From: Spirogloea muscicola
Taxonomy: Eukaryota > Streptophyta > Zygnematophyceae > Spirogloeales > Spirogloeaceae
Assembly: GCA_009602725.1 (NCBI GenBank)
Contig: WELB01000141.1
Span: 51,167-75,461 of the forward strand
Direction of reading: 5' to 3'
Length of the DNA: 24,295 nt
Under the pieces are notes generated by a model. That model saw nothing but the letters and a program-made list of their open reading frames with translations, did not search any database and had not been told where the DNA came from. The number at the start of each line of letters is the position of its first letter. The first letter of the stretch is position 1. Made by a program: the position numbers and the translations under genes. Below are positions 342 through 18,614 of this stretch, in pieces.

Positions 342-853
342 GTCGGGCCTTAATCTTCTTCTGCCTTAAATGATATCTACCAGCATGTCCAGTAATATAC
401 CATCTTGGAATTACTGTTGATGAGGTGCCAGTCGAATGCAGGCCTATCAATGCCACTTGCAGCTACTTGTAATCTTAGGCCAGTTTGTCATCATTGAGTC
501 TGCCAGCTTGCCAGCTTGCAAGCCATGTTGTTGGAACTCGAAGTTACTTACCTCGAATGTGGTTGCTTTGGCGGTGGCTTCTCAGCATGGCGGCAAGCTC
601 AAATGCTTCCAGGTAGCGACCAAGGGAACCACAAGCCTGAGCAACAAGGAGTGGTCTCCAGAGCCTCGTGCTTCAACTGCACCTTCAGGTCCCAACCGGA
701 AAACCAGGCTTGCTCAACACAATGTCACTAAAAGTTGGAGCTTTTACATGCATTGTTGCTCAGTCAGCTCATTACCAGCGCAAGTTATTGTCGCCATACT
801 GACTGAATGCAAGGTTGAGGAGAGAAAAAGGAGGTGAACAGATTTTAAGGAGG
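342..853. other. Probable 5' intron or leader of lpxA, no gene seen
   Basis: AT-richer DNA with stops in all frames and only short chance reading frames. If the exon at 187-341 is real, this is most of lpxA intron 1. Otherwise it is untranslated leader or intergenic DNA. Confidence 0.4.
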
Positions 854-4647: not shown

Positions 4648-5182
4648 TCAGGACAGCGCCGACTGGGGCGGCAGGAAGGGCGTCCACCAGGGGCCGTCGT
4701 ACTTGGGGTACGGCGCCACCCACTTGTCGGGCTGCCCGAACTGCACGTCCACGGGCTTAGATGCGAGCGCCTCGGCGTCGGACGCGGCGTCGAACTCGCC
4801 TTTGAGCACGCGGTCCAGCCGCAGCTTCATGAACGTGATCCACACCGCGTCGGTGGAGACGAGCGCGACGGCGGGGCGGCGCAGGCGCGCGGCCAGGCCC
4901 GGGAAGCGCGCCAGGAAGTCCGGCTCGTACGCCAGCCAGAAGTCGCGGCGCCGCCCCTGCTCGCCGAACAGCCGCAGGCGCTCGCGCATGAGCTCCTGGA
5001 AGTGCTCCTCCTCGTCCAGCATGAACGCCGCGTTCGCCACCACGAAGTGGTACGTCCCGCCGCCGCCGCTGTCCTCGGCCGCCGCCGCGTCCGGCGCCGC
5101 CGCCGCCGCCTCCGCCGAACCCTGGGGTGCCTCGGGCGCGGCNCGCGGCGGCGGCGGCGGCGGCGGCGACGGCGGCGGCCAT
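4648..5182 (-). CDS. ycf54: Ycf54/LCAA-like subunit of Mg-protoporphyrin ester cyclase
   Basis: Ycf54 (LCAA in plants) is an accessory subunit of the aerobic Mg-protoporphyrin IX monomethyl ester cyclase, which makes protochlorophyllide in the plastid. The core begins at TYHFVVANAAF (about residues 43-53) and continues EEEHFQELMRER, DFWLAYEPDFLARFP, VALVSTDAVWITFMKLRL and VLKGEF, ending in a plant-type tail with WVAPYPKYDGPWWTPF. D80, F81 and R121 seem to match cyanobacterial D39, F40 and R82, which I recall as needed for cyclase binding. A single N at 5143, in a CGG run, breaks the frame; dropping it gives one open frame from the ATG at 5182, 177 residues. The first 40 residues are mostly Ala, with little Ser/Thr, so a plastid transit peptide is not obvious and an upstream exon is possible. 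It is the only gene here without an intron. Confidence 0.88.
5143..5180. repeat. CGG triplet run with one ambiguous base
   Basis: A run of CGG/GCG triplets encodes poly-Ala at the start of the ycf54-like protein on the minus strand. The N at 5143 probably marks an unresolved repeat length rather than one unknown base. Confidence 0.75.
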
Positions 5183-6248
5183 GGCGGGCGGGGCTTGGGA
5201 CTTGGGCCTTATCCGGTAGCCTTCGGGGACGGGAAGCACCCGTCAGGCTGACGGCCACCAGCTGACGGCGGCGGGCCCGTCCACCATTGTGCACTCATTT
5301 GTCCCCAAAAAGAAATTCATTTGGTCGTCGAATGCCTGTGACAGAACCTTGCCCTAGCGGACCACCATCGCCTTCTCGTGAAGAATGCTGAAGGAAGCCG
5401 CTAAAAATCCCATACGTGTCCTCAGTGTTGCTATGCCACGTTGTTTAGACTGCAGGACCTGGCGGCAAAACCAAGCTTGCCCGTGGGTTTCCACCAGATT
5501 TAAGTGTCATTTAACAGACACCTATGCATTTCCGAAAGCATGCAGGAGGGCCTGTGGGGAGCTTGAGCAACTCCGCGTGACTCCGATCTTGGAGTTCTGC
5601 AGCAGATGGCTGCAATACTGAATGCAACGCAAGCCACAGTAGCAGCGCCTCCAAACGTGTTGAAGGCCACCATTGTCGGCCTCCCAGGTGGTAAGTTCAA
5701 CAGAACCGCTCTGCTTATACACAGGTAAAACCGCCGACCCAAGACAGTCCAGAAAGTAGCCAGTTGCAGCATTGGCAGCTTACTGAAGGAGTTTCAGAAT
5801 CAGATGTAATGTAGAAGGATTACAAGGAGTAACAAGCCCTTATATACTTGCGGTGTACAAGGGTTAAAATGACTGAAAAGATAGCCAACAGCAAGCTCTC
5901 CAGGTTAAAGCTCCAATCACATGACATGTCTGTGAGCCCCTCTTCATGCAATGTGCAGCTCTGCTGGCTATCGTATCATACATGTACAATATGGGCGCCT
6001 GCATCTTCCTCAGTGCTGCCTCTATATACGCAGTGGAGGCTTTCAGTGCTAGTTTCAGCATGTATGCGCCTTGTGAAACTTGCTGGCATTATTAAGGCCT
6101 CCTGGCTTGCATACATTCCTCATTGTACAAGGACCCAATAACGAGTTATCATATCTGTGTCCACATCGTCAAAAGCATGCGGATACAGCTATGGGTATCC
6201 ATCAACATTATGTGCTAGTCATGCAATACAGCTACAGATATATTAATA
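5183..6248. other. Region between ycf54-like 5' end and helicase 3' end
   Basis: No gene was recognised. The part next to 5183 is GC-rich leader or promoter of the ycf54-like gene; the rest is AT-richer and should include the helicase 3' UTR. A minus-strand TGTAA (plus-strand ttaca at 5820-5824), about 430 bases past the helicase stop, is a possible polyadenylation signal. Confidence 0.5.
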
Positions 6249-9200: not shown

Positions 9201-11313
9201 CGGCTGCGTCATAGCCAAGCCGGCTGCAGATCAGCGGCTCAACTTGCACACAGATCATACACAAAACAGGCATACTTCACCGTGCTTGCCTTGCCATCCT
9301 GCACGCCCTCATTGTCGATCCTTAATCCCCTACTAATGAAGTTTTGTTTGGTAGCAACACGCCGCACCTTGACAGGGCGGCCGAGGCGCACGGGCTGCAG
9401 ACCCAGTGCAAGCAGGCCCTCCACCAGGTTGTCTACCGCCACATTGCTGCGGCAGCAAGGAGCCTTGGCACACTCAAGAAGTGCCGCCGACAGCGTGAAA
9501 GCCATAGGCCTTTTGTGGCATTCTCCGTGTATACTATACATACAATGTATACCCTATATACTATGTTTCAAAGTATATTTAGTAAAAACTTAAGCTATAA
9601 TGTAGTATGTGGGGGCTGCTGACCTGTCGGCGCAAGCGAGGATGGGGCCGCGCTTCATGGCGCGCAGGACCGCCATGAGGTGCAGCAGCGTGCGGGTCTT
9701 GCCGGTGCCAGGCGGGCCCTGCCAGAGCGTCACGCTACGCGCCGTGGCAGCGGCGATGGCCGCCACCTGGCTGGCGTTGAGGCTGATCGCCGGCTGGGCC
9801 GAGTCGCCATTCTGGGCGCCCGCCAGGAGTGCCTCCACGGCACGGCCTTGGACGGCGGCGCTGCCGATGCGAACATCAGCAGGGGGCCTCGCCACCGCAG
9901 CAAGCGCCTGGCCAAGGGGACCGCCCGGGGCGACCTGCGACGGCATGGCTGCCGCCGGCAACGCCGCCAACTCCTTCCTGGGCTGCGATCCAACGTGGTC
10001 ACCGGTGATGCGGAGCTTCTCGGCTTCCAGCACCACTGCCGCCAGCGCCGCAACGCCCTCGCCGAGCAGCGAGGGCACTGCGCTGCCACTGCCGCTGTCT
10101 GCCTGCTTCCTCTCGCGGCGACCTCCATCCGGCCTCTGCCGAGCACCATGCGCAGGCCGCGCCGATGCGCTGCTGCGCTCGCCGAGTGCGGCAGCAAAGA
10201 CAGTGACGGCCTCCGTGGCCCGCCGGTATGCAACCTCGTTTGCCGACAGGTCCAGCCGCCACCGGGAGCCGGCAGCGGCTGTCACCAGCGGCACATCCCG
10301 CCGTGCAACGACCACAAGCAAGTGCCTGCCGGCGTCAAGCAGGTATGTCCCACCGGTCATGACGAGCGGCTACGCTCACAGCTCCAGCGAGTGGCTCAGT
10401 ATCGGCTATGCATGCTGAAGCCTCGGAACCCCGCCCATGCCACTAAGTATCACTGCTTGCATATGCAGATAAAGCAGAGCATATCTATGGACCCTGTTGT
10501 ACATACTTCAGCTCAATCTCAGGCTTCAGAATGTAGCGAGCGAGCAGCGGGTGTAGCGAAGCGGCAAGCCTCACCCCCGGGCGGCCTCCAGGACGACGCC
10601 TTCGACGGCGTCCGCGCCATCCTCCAGGGGGCCCCGGGCGCTGATCGTCACCATGTCCCCCTGCAGCAGCAGCGCAGCCAACGAGTGCCATGGCAATGCT
10701 CGGGTCAGTTGGTGCAGCTGGGCTGGTCAGGGGCAAGCTCCAGATGGGCTCTCGAAAGGGGCCACACCCTGTCATTGTTCTCCCATTGTAATCATTGTCC
10801 TAAGCGCAGGTTGATTGAAGAGAGATTCCTTTTTTTGAATACAGAGAAATCTCCAGAGAGCACCACACCTGCCCAAAACGGTGGTGTGGCGGCAAGCCGC
10901 CTGGGCCTGGCGCCGACAGCCGCACAATCGCGTCCTTCCTGCGAGCACGCAGTAAGTAGCGTCGCCAGAAAACCCATGAGATGCAGCATGCAGTCGTGCT
11001 CGGAGTCGTCAATGAAAGGGTCTAGGGTTCAGGGTCTAGGGTGCAGAGATTAGGGTTTGACGATTAGGTCTGGGGTGTAAGGGTTTAGGGTTCCAGGGTT
11101 TCGGATTTGGGGTTCGGGTTCAAGTAGAAGCTGACGCGTAGAAGCGGCCCTCGTGGCGTGCGGCGAGGCCAAAGAGCGCCACGCCTTCCTCAGCGAGGCG
11201 CGCAGCCGGCCAGCGCTCCAGTCGCTCCCGCACTGCCCTCGCCTCCTCGTCCTGCGGCGGACGCGGCGGCGGCAGTGGCGCCGTGCCGAGCGCCGCGCTG
11301 CTGTGAGCAGGCC
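6249..11313 (-). CDS. Superfamily 1B Upf1/SMUBP2-like helicase, 5' end in assembly gap
   Basis: This is an ATP-driven 5'-3' RNA/DNA helicase of the Upf1/IGHMBP2 group; its substrate and cell compartment are unknown. Visible exons, in transcript order: 11313-11136, 10938-10869, 10660-10575, 10325-9624, 9446-9368, 9180-8963, 8799-8706, 8510-8397, 8046-7970, 7792-7697, 7413-7299, 7159-7070, 6791-6696, 6521-6249. All phases agree, giving at least 761 residues. The N-terminus ([27 protein letters not shown]) resembles the SMUBP2 barrel region; no Upf1 zinc domain is visible. Motifs: Walker A GPPGTGKT (314-321), Ib [17 protein letters not shown] (471-475), [12 protein letters not shown] (497-505), [19 protein letters not shown] (662-671), [12 protein letters not shown] (696-705). 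Two consecutive introns have GC rather than GT donors. The start codon lies in the gap, head to head with purN. Confidence 0.93.
7524..7557. repeat. 17-bp perfect tandem duplication in a helicase intron
   Basis: The unit ATCTCTTGAATTTTGAT occurs twice in a row (7524-7540, 7541-7557) inside the helicase intron at 7414-7696. Confidence 0.9.
8165..8310. repeat. Tandem duplication (68 and 78 bp) in a helicase intron
   Basis: Copy 1 is 8165-8232 and copy 2 is 8233-8310. Both start ACCnCTCACTACAGT, share a long near-identical core (AGTAACTTGGTTAATGAGGC and onward) and end GAGCTCCAG. Copy 2 carries about 10 extra bases before that end. The repeat lies in the intron at 8047-8396 and codes for nothing recognisable. 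Confidence 0.88.
11018..11118 (-). repeat. Degenerate telomere-like (TTTAGGG/CCCTAAA) tract in helicase intron
   Basis: On the plus strand this intron carries repeated AGGGTT, TTAGGG and GGGTTTAGGG pieces with irregular spacing. The gene is on the minus strand, so the transcript reads CCCTAA/AAACCC. It follows the first visible exon and is probably intron 1 or 2. Confidence 0.8.
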
Positions 11314-12098: not shown

Positions 12099-13765
12099 CC
12101 GCGGCGGCCGCCGCCCGTAAGGCCGGCGTTCACGGTGGCGGCGGCGGCGGAGGAGGCTGGCGGCGGCGGCGGCGGCGGCGGCGAGACCAGCCCGTACGAT
12201 GCGACGAAGCTTGCGGTGTTTGTGTCGGGCGGCGGCAGCAACCTGCGCAGGCTCCGCGAGGCCATCGCCGACGGCGAGGTCTTTGGCGAGGTCGCCGTCG
12301 TCGTCAGCGACAAACCGGGTAACCCGCCGCCGCCGCCCCCACCGCCGCCGCCATGGTGCCCGTGTCACCCACGTTGGCAGCCGGGCAGATGCGCTGCATG
12401 ATGACAGAGTATTGCCGTAATTGACGAGTATTAGACATAAGTGACCTTCGTCTAAGAACATGGGTGGGGAAATAGATTCAGGTCTGAGATGCGAAGCCCT
12501 AATCTGAGACCCTAAACCCCCTATACCCTGAACCCTAATCGTAAACCCTTCAACCCTACATCCAAACTCCCTCGGCCATGCTCGGCTGGACGACCGTCGT
12601 CTAAGGCCGCCACTTCCGGCGCTGGCTGGCTGACGACGCCCGCCGCAGAGTGCGGCGGCTGCGCGTATGCCAGGGACCAGGGCATCCCCAGGCTGCCGTT
12701 CCCCCGCTGCAAGGCCGCGCCCGACGGCCTCTCCGTCGACGCCCTGCTCCAGTCTCTCAGGTGGGCACTAAGCGGTGATGGCGCCGGCCCACAGCGCCAC
12801 GACTCCCGACGGCTAACGAACCCATGTAGCATTCTTAATCTAAAGGCCAGCGTTCGATTCTCGATGGTCGGCGCTTCCGCTGGCGGCTGCAGGGGCTTCG
12901 CAGTGGAGTACGTGCTGTTGGCGGGGTACCTGAAGCTGCTGCCGGTGGAGCTGGTGCGCGCGTACCCACGCGCCATCCTCAACATCCACCCCGCGCTCCT
13001 CCCCTCCTTTGGCGGCAAAGGTTTTTATGGCATGGCCGTCCACCGCGCCGTGATCAAGTCCGGTGCCCGGTGAGGACTCCCAAGACGGCCGCACTAATGC
13101 TCGAACATGCCGTACCGGTTGTCGTCAGTGGTTGGGTTATGGGCTGGCCATCCTATAGAACGCAGCTTACGTGGCATCATCACGGCTTCTGGCCAGAGCC
13201 GGCCGCAAATGCTGCCGCCTCTGAAGCGGCTGCAGTCGGGCTGGCGGGCGGCGGCCCCAGGTTCTCAGGCCCCACGGTGCACTTTGTGGACGAGCACTAC
13301 GACCACGGTCCCATTGTAGCGCAGCGCATCGTCCCGGTCTTACCCTTTGACTCGCCCCAGGACCTGGCCAAGCGCGTCCTGGAGCAGGTATGCTCCAGCA
13401 GGCTGCGATCCACTCAACAGCCTCGTCAGGGGCTCCCTGTGGAGGACAGAGTATTACATGATTTATAGACTTAAGAACAGTTAGTAGCTTCATCACCATG
13501 GTGAGATAATGCTCTGCTTCTCAGCAGCCAATTTCATATTGGGGGCACTGCAAGTCTGTCTCCCTAATACCGCACCAGTGACCAAGTCCACCCGCTTGAC
13601 GTTCATCATATGATCAACAAAAGCGACTCTCTTGCGAGGCATTTGCTGCAGGAGCACCAGGTGTATGTCCAGGTTGTTGCTGCGCTCTGCGAGGACCGCA
13701 TCACATGGCGCGAGGACGGTGTCCCGCTGTTGCGGACCTCCTGGGACGAGTGCGAGTACCTGTAA
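12099..13765 (+). CDS. purN: Phosphoribosylglycinamide formyltransferase (GAR transformylase), 5' partial
   Basis: PurN transfers a formyl group from 10-formyltetrahydrofolate to GAR, step three of purine synthesis; in plants it is plastid-targeted. Exons: up to 12318, then 12649-12760, 12893-13069, 13261-13387, 13652-13765, with consistent phases and at least 249 residues visible. The frame is open into the gap, so the start and any transit peptide are not seen. A poly-Gly stretch (21-28) precedes the domain. Signatures: KLAVFVSGGGSN (37-48, phosphate-binding loop), ECGGCAYARDQGIP, VLLAGYLKLLPVELVRAYP, the catalytic NIHPALLPSFGG with N141 and H143, and HFVDEHYDHGPIVAQ with D184 (E. coli N106, H108, D144). 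The end (WREDGVPLLRTSWDECEYL) is complete. It is the plant-type single-domain enzyme, not the animal trifunctional form. Confidence 0.96.
12135..12182 (+). repeat. GGC triplet run encoding poly-Gly in purN
   Basis: Near-continuous GGC/GCG triplets next to the gap encode Ala/Gly-rich low complexity just before the PurN catalytic domain. Confidence 0.8.
12495..12558 (+). repeat. Degenerate CCCTAAA-like tract in purN intron 1
   Basis: Several CCCTAA, ACCCTAAACCCC and AACCCT pieces lie in the intron at 12319-12648, C-rich on the coding strand. Confidence 0.8.
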
Positions 13766-14603: not shown

Positions 14604-17600
14604 TCAGTGTGCGGATATCTGGGCCAGCGCCAGCTTCAGCTGGTCGTCAGCCAATGGTTTGGTCAAAAAGCCGTCCATCCCGACCTTGGCACACTTCTCT
14701 CGCGCTCCTAGTACAACGTCAGCGGTGATGGCGATGATGGGCACACGCGGGGAGGCTGCGGCGCTGTCTGGCGCCCCAGCTGCGCACTTGTTGACAGCAG
14801 AAGCAGCAGCCTCCAGCTCCATCCGCCTCACCTCCTTTGTAGCCTCGTACCCGTCCATGACGGGCATCTGCATTGGAACAAATTAATCCAATTCAGTTGT
14901 CGTAGCATTGACCCAGCACAGAGATGACTGCAACACAATAATGTCCTTGTTGCACATCACTCTGCAGGCTGTGTATGACTGGACAACCACGTTTGACAGC
15001 TCAAGAAGCATCAGTCACACCAACAGTTCTGCTAACCATGATAAAAACTAAGAGATGTAAAAGACCGCAAGCAGCGCAGAGCAGACATTATCATGCCCAC
15101 TCACCCATGACAATATTGTGCTGACAACTACGTGTATAGCAAGTGCTGGTTCTCAAGCTATTGAAAAATAGGACCATGAAGGGGCATATGAACGAGATAT
15201 GGACGTCAAGAAGCGTGCAACAGAGTACCAACCTGGAGGTCCATAAAGACGCAGGCGAATGGGTGCCTGCCTGGTGAAAGCTGCTCCACGGCCTTCTTGC
15301 CATTTTCAGCATACGACACAGCCATGCCATAGCCAGCGAGCTTGCGCCCAAGCACCTTGCGATTGACAGGATTGTCATCCACCACCAGCGAGCACTTGCC
15401 CTTGAGGAGGTCAAGGCTGGACGAAGTGGCCGGGCTGGCGGGTGCTGGCGGCGCCAATGTGGGACGTTGAGATGGTGATGGGGCTGCAACGGCAGGCCAG
15501 CCCATAGAAGGCGGGACTGCAACGGCTTCCATTGCTGCAGCAGGTCGCAGCGGCCCGGCAGGGACAGTGGCGTCTGTGCCGCCACTGCCATCCTGCCGGC
15601 GCAAAACTCCATCATCCAACTTGCGCAGTGACTGCGCGGCGGTAGGACCATCTGAAGTCGGTGCATGACACTCCGCTCTGTTTACCTCATCAGCCTGCGG
15701 TGGCCGCCTGCACGAGTCGTCTGTCGCCTTGCCTGCACTATCTGCCAACAATTGCTGGCACTCAAGCCGCCTGGCCTGGCTGCCAGCCTCCTCATCAGCG
15801 GCCCCCTCGGAGCTGGAGCAGCTGGGCCACGACTGAAGCGGCGTGACAGCGGAGCCGCCAGCCTCCTCGAGCATCTTAGGAGGCAGCGTCTTCCGAGAGT
15901 AGAAGTGGCCGTCCGCCTCTGCTGCATCGGGCCTCGGCACAGCTTGCATGGGCGGCGACTGCTGCAGCAGGGCGGCAGCAGTCGTGGACAGGCCAAGCCT
16001 GGCAGTAGAGCGGCTGTCCAGCAAACCAGCGGAGCAGCTCAGCGATAGCGCGGCCGTCACGGTGGAGCCGCACGCCCGGCCGTCCGATATCACGCAGAGC
16101 TCTGCCAGCAAGGTGTGGATGTGGAGCGCCGCCGCCTTTGCCAGCTGCACGCCGCCGGCGGCAGCCTCCGCATCGGCTCCGATGCCGCCTCGGCCGCACC
16201 TTTGCATCTTGAGCGCCTGCAGGGCCTCCGCCGCCCAGCCCTGGTGCTGCCGCGGCAGCGAGCTGCAGGAGCCGCCGCCGGCTGGCCCCGCCGACTCGCC
16301 ACCTGTCGCCTCTGCCTCCTGCCACTGCCCGTGCCAGCGCTCCATGTACTCCGTCTCCATGACCGTCACCTGCCCCAGAGCAGCTCCCTTGCCGGCTCCA
16401 TCGACCTGACCGGTCCCCTGGTTGGCTCTGCTCGACGACCTGGCGAGGTCATCTTCCTCGACAGCCGGGGTCTTCATAGTGGGGCTGCTGACTGAGCAGC
16501 CGTCGGCTTGGAAGCGGAAGGACAGGCAGTCCTCGCTGATGGGGTCACTGCCGAGGCGACTCAACATTGGCAGGTTCAGCTCCTCACTCACAGGTTGCAC
16601 AACTGCTGCCAGCTCGGCAGTCTCAGCCGGGCTCGAAGCGCAGTCGCAATCGCCATCCGAGCCAGCGGACGTGCCGTCTTGCAAGTTGCACACGAGAGCG
16701 TCGCAGCTCCCAGCGGGGGTCGCCCAGCTGCCGGGCTCGCTGAGCTGCGAGCTGCTCTCCCCGCCGGCTTCGGCCGCTGCCTCTGCCTGCGAGCCGCCGA
16801 GCACGTCCCCCAAGTCCAGCAGTGGCCGGCTCTCGTCGTCGGCTCGGACGAGACCCGGGCTGTGCAGGCCAAACCCCTCCAACATGTCGTCGTCCGGCGC
16901 AGCCTCTGGTAGCGTGGTCGACACACCAAGCTCCGAGTAGACAAAGTGCGCGAGCCAATTGACGAGCTTCCAGCAGGAGTGCAGCGCTGTGTCGACATAC
17001 TCGCGCTCCACAGCGCTTAGCTGCGCCTGCTCCTGGAGGAGGTTCATCATGCCTGGTGACAGGGAAGGCCTCCGCTTCTTGTCAGTTTGTGAAAGTTACA
17101 TCGAGAGGGCAGCTACGACGACAATCAGGGTCAACGGCAGCGGTGAAGGTCTCACCAATCATGCCGTGCAGGGGCGTGCGGATCTCATGCGAGACCATAG
17201 AAAGGAAGGCCTTCTTGGCAGTGACGGCGCCCTCTGCGACCTCCCGTGCCTTGGCCAGCTCCACCAGAAGCTTACTGGTCTGCTGCTCCGCACGGTTGGC
17301 GAAGTGCCAGACCGCCAGCAGGCAGCTGGAGATGCTGGCGAGTGTGAACAGCATCGCAGCCCAGATGGCCGGCTCCTGGTCGCACCTGAGGGGCCAACCA
17401 GCGCCGGCCAATGCCAATCACGCTCAGGCCGGATTCTTGGGACGCGACATTGCTCTGGCATACCAGTCAGGCAGCACAGACGCGCCGGATGACATGCCGA
17501 AGGGCGCAAGAGAAGGCCGCAACATACCTCAGCGCGGACAGCGCTTTGCCCTCGGCAGCACCCGGGCCGCCTCCGAGCATGAGGGACGCGGCAAGGATAG

Positions 17601-17975
17601 CGAGGGCGGCTGTGATGCCCCACAACGCGGTGACGAGCTGCTTACTCCCTAGCGAGGTCTCCGGCACAGGGGCTTGCAGTATCCCGTCCTCGTCCAGGAT
17701 GCTGTGCCGCCGCGCAGGGGCCACCCCAACCCCGCATCAGATGCGGTGCCCGCACTTGCTTCGCTAGTCGTCGCATAAGAGTACCGAGGACTCCTGACGG
17801 CCATAGCATCGCCGTCACTGCGCTCGAGCAGGCAGCCATCGCTACACAAGCTAGCTCGTGTACTGCTTGACATCAGGGACGCTTCCACGCAGCGCAAGCT
17901 TAGAGCCCTGCCCTCGGCGGCTCCACTACGTGTCAACATCGCCACCCGGGCTTTCATCGTCCACAAGGCCTCCAT
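14604..17975 (-). CDS. Hybrid histidine kinase-like protein lacking a visible ATPase domain
   Basis: A membrane phosphorelay protein. Proposed exons, in transcript order: 17975-17785, 17701-17528, 17385-17156, 17052-15233, 14867-14604; 892 residues, phases consistent. Two membrane segments (about 86-106 and 128-150) flank a loop of about 20 residues, with no sensor domain seen. A helical linker leads to the H-box [16 protein letters not shown] (phospho-His H188) and the second dimerisation helix ([19 protein letters not shown]). Residues of about 245-750, all in one exon, are low-complexity Ala/Ser/Gly/Glu with no N, G1, F or G2 box. A complete receiver follows: D757/D758, acceptor D803 in FMDLQMPVMDG, T853, K875 in FLTKPL. 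The H-box style recalls plant AHK-type receptors. The start is less sure: the first intron would be 83 bases, and another ATG lies upstream near 18058. Sensor and partners are unknown. Confidence 0.84.
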
Positions 17976-18614
17976 GCTGCTGCTAGTGAGAGTATGGCGC
18001 GGGCGGGACTCACAGCTCCAGGTTCAGCGCATCGTGCTCCATTTCCATCGACCCCGCGCCGGCCCTCATCCGCGCGGCCCGCGCTCAGCCGGCATCGCCT
18101 GCGGCGAAGCTGCGCCTGCGCGCCACCTCGGCTGGCCGGGCGACGAAGCTCGCAAATCTGGGCGCCTGCCGCCAGCAGCACCGTCGCGCCGTGGCGGCGG
18201 CGGCGGCGCNAAGGCGGAGGGCACGGCCTGCTGGCCCGGCGCCCAGGCGAGCGCGGGACCTCGGACGGCGGCGCAGGTCAGGCGCTAGCGCCAGCCGCCG
18301 TCGCCGCCGCCGCCGCTGCCGCAGTGGCCATGGGGCCTCAGAGGGGGGAGCAGCGGAACTGGCTGGGAGGTGTTTCCGCTGTTCCGGCCATCTCCAGATT
18401 CTTCCTCTCGCCGGGCGGCGGGCGCGCTTTTCCCTGTTCTCAACGGGCGAGCAATTTCTTCTATTCTTCCCCGCCCAGCCCGCCCGGAGGCACACCACCT
18501 GGCACATGGTAAATCACAACTGTCATCTAATGGAGGTCCCCCACCCCCCACCTGGGAAAAGCAGTTCCGTTCCCGGAGTCCCCCCGTGTTTGCACAGTGC
18601 CTGGTGGAGGAGCC

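Follow-up and report, generated by a model that had tools for sequence, protein, structure and literature searches.

A histidine kinase-like gene with no recognizable ATPase domain

The window (the whole 24,295-nucleotide stretch of DNA that we analyzed) encodes a putative relative of hybrid histidine kinases that has a HisKA domain and a receiver and lacks a catalytic ATPase domain (HATPase_c). A preliminary description of the sequence had claimed that this domain is missing, and the claim holds up: Pfam, profiles of the ATPase boxes, and the other reading frames were all empty, and a second copy of the gene is equally without the domain. From the comparison of these two diverged copies, we conclude that the gene is maintained by selection and is not dead.

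The gene model has five exons (Table 1) and predicts a protein of 847 amino acids. Comparison with the second copy, on contig C64, suggests the placement of exons 1 and 2: exon 1 is in frame, with no indel in either copy, and an in-frame stop precedes its ATG. Exon 4, the feature originally reported, has 1,820 bases and an open frame of 606 residues, and its flanking introns are 103 and 365 bases. It had been described as open throughout and joined to the exon with the H-box, which agrees with the frame and with the junction between exons 3 and 4 (ATT G|GC), across which the HisKA domain becomes continuous. Exon 4 was also said to encode the second dimerization helix, a linker of about 500 residues, and a complete receiver. 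The helix and the linker (508 amino acids) stand, but the receiver is incomplete within exon 4, because the exon ends in ...FMDLQ and both T808 and K830 are in the exon at 14867-14604. The receiver becomes continuous across the phase 0 junction of exons 4 and 5 (CAG|ATG, or DLQ|MP). The phospho-site residues listed as H188, D803, T853, and K875 are indeed kept, as H143, D758, T808, and K830 in our model. The earlier numbering, for a protein of 892 amino acids, is exactly 45 higher at every site, so the two models differ at the N terminus only.

Table 1. Predicted exons of the gene, stretches of its linker, and other features of the window (window coordinates)
Feature	Position	Strand	Description
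Exon 1	18014..18069	-	Start codon and first residues MRAGAGSMEMEHDALNLEL; donor GTGAGT; predicted
Exon 2	17528..17701	-	First hydrophobic segment, protein 40-66; GT-AG borders; no indel between copies
Exon 3	17156..17385	-	Second hydrophobic segment (82-106), coiled stretch, first HisKA helix, H-box HEIRTP (H143)
Exon 4 (reported feature)	15233..17052	-	Second HisKA helix (155-196), linker (197-704), receiver start with D711/D712 and D758
Exon 5	14604..14867	-	Remainder of the receiver (MPVMDG, T808, K830) and stop codon
Central linker stretch	15941..16378	-	Protein 379-524; single-sequence models mainly helical
Conserved island of the linker	16025..16132	-	Protein 461-496
Ycf54 domain	4648..5208	-	PF10674, E 1.2e-31; consistent with a photosynthetic eukaryote
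AAA_11 domain	9590..10369	-	PF13086 with GPPGTGKT, E 3.6e-10; helicase-like
Formyl transferase	12516..13468	+	PF00551 over two overlapping open frames, 8.9e-15 and 2e-9; frames adjoin an N run at about 11.3-12.1 kb

Domains of the predicted protein

In the joined protein, Pfam matched HisKA (PF00512) to residues 133-183 with E = 3.2e-11 (2e-11 in the C64 copy) and Response_reg (PF00072) with E = 9.1e-21 (2.4e-21 in the C64 copy), and both matches are above their cut-offs. A genome-wide profile scan also found the HisKA match, at C141:68314-68385. The receiver residues D711, D712, D758, T808, and K830 are all kept in both copies. When the protein from exon 4 was compared to NCBIfam, the matches were confined to residues 535-606, which is the receiver. 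In PDB, the top matches are receivers from hybrid kinases, with 7p8e (1.2e-37), 7p8c (1.6e-22), and 7p8d at the head of the list. 7p8c and 7p8d are titled "Receiver domain of histidine kinase 4," and 7p8e and 7p8c are presumably plant proteins.

Besides the missing ATPase domain, no sensor domain is recognizable by Pfam, an absence that the preliminary description did not mention. The two hydrophobic segments (19-residue hydropathy of the first, up to 2.08) are 15 residues apart, which leaves no room for a CHASE domain. Pfam searches at E values up to 10, a range in which HMMER's filters remove most matches above about 0.1, gave one further match for the window copy (E = 3.2) and no matches to CHASE, to GAF, to the HPt domain (PF01627), or to the CRE1-type first receiver (PF24896) in the predicted protein. 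The model for the CRE1-type receiver does match the paralogues on C32 and C69. On prokaryote contigs, we examined 26 pattern-matched stretches for relatives of the protein, and none were confirmed.

Searches for the ATPase domain

The preliminary description had proposed an HMM search for HisKA and HATPase_c. With HisKA detected as above, HATPase_c (PF02518) had no match in the window copy or the C64 copy at E up to 10, with the same filtering. The description had also raised a hidden exon or another frame that encodes HATPase_c, and none turned up: Pfam found no HATPase_c in nine other translations of the region, and regular expressions for the N, G1, and G2 boxes had no hit when all six frames of the window and of the C64 stretch (L009) were scanned. 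In the genome scan, no HATPase_c match was on C141 or C64 among the 38 of 141 candidates that were scored. In our judgement, the introns are too small or too stop-ridden to conceal an ATPase domain. Given the small introns, the nine empty translations, and no listed match on either contig, a hidden HATPase_c exon seems very unlikely.

We also built profiles of the boxes from this genome's own kinases (N, n = 15; G1, n = 14; G2, n = 19), after removing segments that contain stops. With the N and G1 profiles, the linker was not reported at all, while 77/500 (N) and 128/500 (G1) shuffled linkers were. With the G2 profile, the linker scored -0.8 bits (C141) and 0.1 bits (C64), as compared to leave-one-out scores of 13.3 to 67.9 for the family. 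These two scores were reached by 17/500 and 11/500 shuffles of the C141 linker, fractions that we did not count because three boxes were tried, the score is low, and the best site (linker residues 89-100) lies outside the glycine motif. That site is not STARLGLS, which had been suggested to be a decayed G2 box. We rejected this candidate: LGL is present in 37.6% of 2,000 shuffled linkers, which is chance level, and the G2 profile prefers the other site.

The linker is of low complexity and is rich in alanine (16%), serine (11%), glycine (10%), and proline (8%), with 0.8% each of asparagine and isoleucine. Its frame has no stops over 508 codons in either copy, while the other five frames have 5-13 stops. 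Single-sequence AlphaFold2 models are of low confidence (mean pLDDT of 47.7 for the center of the linker and 42.6 for all of exon 4). The center was modeled as helices only, with no strand; in the model of exon 4, strands are in the receiver part only (blocks with pLDDT of 77-82), and the linker is helices or coil at low confidence.

Is the linker an extremely diverged HATPase_c and first receiver that still binds ATP? Its length resembles that of the ATPase domain plus first receiver of the paralogues (as estimated by eye), and a HATPase_c domain in plants can reportedly diverge so far that domain searches no longer find it, as in ethylene receptors of subfamily II (PMC12918298). However, no profile matches the linker, its composition is skewed as described above, and the low-confidence models have no strand between HisKA and the receiver. 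In addition, the linker's best tblastn match in 30 kinase loci, its own copy aside, has E = 1.9. We therefore consider this explanation highly improbable. A histidine kinase without an ATPase domain cannot phosphorylate itself. Since no HATPase_c is recognizable, the predicted protein should not autophosphorylate.

A second copy and evidence of selection

The second copy, on C64, has 90% DNA identity to the window copy and the same structure. All exons are free of indels between the copies, with no frameshift and no stop. Exon 5 is 96.2% identical without a gap, the 103-base intron is 88% identical without gap columns, and the 365-base intron is 81% identical with 19 gap columns. As the ATPase domain is missing from both copies, it was most simply lost before they split.

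The copies are close (dS = 0.18), and dN/dS between them is 0.284 overall. It is 0.349 in the N terminus (interval 0.16-0.68), 0.081 in HisKA (85 codons with 7 synonymous and 2 nonsynonymous changes; interval 0-0.30), 0.341 in the linker (interval 0.23-0.45), and 0.045 in the receiver (13 synonymous and 2 nonsynonymous changes; interval 0-0.15). In the linker, substitutions at codon positions 1, 2, and 3 number 40, 29, and 65. The linker's lowest dN/dS, 0.14, is in a 60-codon window (467-526); across the 36-residue conserved island (Table 1), 1 residue differs between the copies, and no known domain was found there. Thus, the linker shows the pattern of a translated region under mild constraint, and HisKA and the receiver are tightly held.

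The preliminary description had argued from the kept phospho-site residues that the gene is not dead. Two indel-free copies under purifying selection are a stronger argument than the kept residues alone. The alternative is an artefact or a pseudogene, that is, a misassembly, a missing exon, or a decaying gene. Although the exon structure was predicted from sequence and the C64 copy has a run of N upstream of exon 1, an artefact would not readily give the same structure on two different contigs, without a frameshift or stop and under purifying selection, and we give this explanation very little credence.

Other kinases in the genome and the origin of the gene

The profile scan found HisKA at 78 exon places in the genome and HATPase_c at at least 43, a minimum since 38 of 141 candidates were scored and split domains are missed. 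Kinase matches often come in groups of two to three, with near-equal scores and on different contigs, which resembles a polyploid or unmerged assembly. With the regular-expression patterns used on the window, we found at least one ATPase box on the coding strand in 28 of 29 other HisKA loci, which represent apparent copy groups as judged from scores, with many further copies outside the sample. The exception is on C52 (L018, extended as L041; C52:81000-88000), which has HisKA exons and no ATPase box downstream within the stretch. The C52 locus may be a fragment or a truncated kinase gene; given this locus, the C141/C64 pair may not be the sole such case in the genome. The genome also contains a putative plant-type HPt with VHQLKGSS, as two exon-split copies (C241, L039; C252, L040), which were recognized with a query sequence. 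The Pfam Hpt model had no matches in the genome scan and missed this pair too.

Two pairs of paralogues, C32/C172 and C69/C94, have the make-up of CHASE-domain hybrid histidine kinases, the type of the cytokinin receptors. Their CHASE matches, each within a single exon, are weak and below the cut-off (4.5e-4 and 6.9e-4), and the genome scan for CHASE had no match at E = 0.001. Their HATPase_c domains are divided among exons, in pieces that score under the cut-off, yet the boxes are clear, and their CRE1-type first receivers match at 7e-9 and 3.6e-13. Like our gene, these kinases have the HisKA H-box and a receiver at the end, and they share two of its intron positions, one in phase 1 that follows the H-box (ATT G| or ATC G|) and one in phase 0 at DLQ|MP. 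Unlike them, our gene lacks CHASE, HATPase_c, and the CRE1-type first receiver, and its linker is in one exon. L030 shares the DLQ|MP intron only, and L031 shares neither.

By summed tblastn scores, in which overlapping pieces are counted, C32/C172 come first after the gene's own copy by a small margin, both for HisKA (68.2 and 67.4 bits; next is L017, 57.3) and for the receiver (160.3 and 163.4; next is L031, 154.0). The best single HisKA piece is from L030 (51.2). The CHASE pairs, L030, and L031 all show identities of 0.49-0.51 to our gene. We also made a quick FastTree of query-anchored pieces, with 13 rows, as 18 of the 30 loci had under 90 receiver columns and were dropped. With HisKA and the receiver combined, the gene has a long branch, which falls to the side of L014-L016, L028, and L024 (local support 0.96); with the receiver alone, it is on the same side (0.86). 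Descent from the CHASE kinases is not supported by this tree, which places the gene apart from C32/C172 and C69/C94. Intron positions and the tree disagree on the parent; we infer descent from a plant-type hybrid histidine kinase.

What the protein might do

From the preliminary description's interpretation, a kinase-dead protein with an H-box and a receiver, encoded by a live gene, is supported; a relay scaffold, phosphorylation by a partner, and a receiver-controlled phosphatase are candidate roles that it offered. We lean, at slightly less than an even chance, toward a kinase-dead, membrane-anchored, dimeric phosphate acceptor that derives from a plant-type hybrid kinase and would act as a drain or buffer on the HPt pool. 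The receiver's D758 would take phosphate back from the plant-type HPt (C241/C252), and the phosphate would then be lost as inorganic phosphate. The HisKA domain would mediate dimerization and might also hold phosphate as an additional station. Overall, the phosphorelay would be drained or buffered constitutively. In Arabidopsis, AHK4 is reported to dephosphorylate AHPs via Asp973 of its receiver, with no effect of cytokinin, and CKI1 likewise dephosphorylates AHPs in vitro (PMC6963811). A remnant with the anchor, HisKA, and receiver would retain AHK4-type reverse activity alone. In favor of a drain, we counted the absence of HATPase_c, purifying selection, the full set of receiver residues, and the presence of the HPt pair. 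Against it, a pure drain would need the receiver only, and the protein has nonetheless retained its H-box (H, E, and T of HEIRT).

The kept H-box fits phosphorylation in trans by a partner equally well. In this alternative, HisKA would pair with a complete kinase of the same cell, whose ATPase domain would charge H143, and phosphate would pass to D758 and on to HPt, so that the protein would be a receptor subunit or a signal integrator. HisKA is constrained as well as intact at the HEIRT residues, the genome contains kinases that have ATPase boxes and a similar HisKA, and AHK3-AHK4 heterodimers have been reported (PMC6963811). However, the CA-proximal end of helix 2 lacks the DVLDLSKIE pattern of the paralogues, the Pfam match to HisKA stops at position 50 of 66 in the profile, and the diverged end of the helix could hinder docking of the partner's ATPase domain. 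A trans-phosphorylated relay seems unlikely on balance, if a serious contender.

Less probable still is a receiver-bearing scaffold or dominant-negative decoy, which would titrate HPt or kinases by binding, with phosphate chemistry being secondary. The long linker, with conserved islands such as the 467-526 minimum, could be a binding platform, and the pseudo-HPt AHP6 is reported to work by competition (PMC6963811). But a decoy would not need H143, D711, D712, D758, T808, and K830, and all six are kept in both copies.

Comparison with known proteins

The phosphotransferases Spo0B and ChpT have a kinase-derived, dimeric, helical His domain with no autokinase activity that is fed by receivers; they are soluble and keep a degenerate ATPase-like domain. 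In contrast, no ATPase-like domain is recognizable here, and the receiver is fused. DivL of Caulobacter, a pseudo-histidine kinase, is likewise reported to have been repurposed away from kinase activity (PMC4211667). It has a tyrosine at the phospho-site and keeps the catalytic fold, which is the reverse of what we see.

Some archaeal proteins described as "possible incomplete histidine kinases" have a HisKA domain with its histidine and no HATPase, and AF_1472 has a receiver as well; roles as phospho-acceptors, in phosphotransfer, or as phosphatases were suggested (PMC5847659). Unlike our protein, they have sensor or PAS/GAF domains (AF_1472 has a receiver, PAS/GAF, and HisKA) (PMC5847659). 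Ours is eukaryotic and is predicted to be membrane anchored, with no sensor found and with a C-terminal receiver after a 508-residue linker. The Arabidopsis response regulator ARR22 was proposed to be an Asp-dependent phosphatase of AHP phospho-histidine (PMC2478664). It differs in being preferentially cytoplasmic, and the abstract mentions neither a HisKA domain nor a membrane anchor (PMC2478664).

Among eukaryotic proteins, the subfamily II ethylene receptors are similar in being membrane proteins with HisKA and a receiver, and several members from the wheat group, such as TaETR2D and TaETR4, are reported to have no detectable HATPase_c, a domain that has diverged in this subfamily (PMC12918298). 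Thus, eukaryotic HisKA-receiver proteins without a recognized ATPase domain have already been reported. The ethylene receptors have three transmembrane domains, a GAF domain, and ethylene binding (PMC12918298), unlike our protein with its two hydrophobic segments, 508-residue linker, and no GAF match. Our protein differs in having no recognizable input domain, in its linker, and in its non-ethylene ancestry. In a literature search, no such algal protein was among the matches listed, as judged by titles and the beginnings of abstracts.

Implications

Tentatively, this gene may encode a eukaryotic hybrid histidine kinase without its sensor and ATPase domains that has been kept as a two-copy, membrane-bound His-Asp phosphate station, which would either drain or buffer the HPt pool in an alga or be charged in trans by full-length kinases. 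A 508-residue linker of a new kind would stand in place of the catalytic core, and, unlike in the ethylene receptors without a recognized ATPase domain, there would be no recognizable input domain. Annotation from HisKA only or from the receiver only would label the protein a histidine kinase, and the same error affects its archaeal counterparts (PMC5847659). Hybrid kinases are mostly viewed as sources of phosphate, although AHK4 and CKI1 have been reported to run backwards (PMC6963811). If our reading is true, this protein would be a natural case of separation of function, and it asks whether the receiver and HisKA have a job of their own, such as damping the relay.
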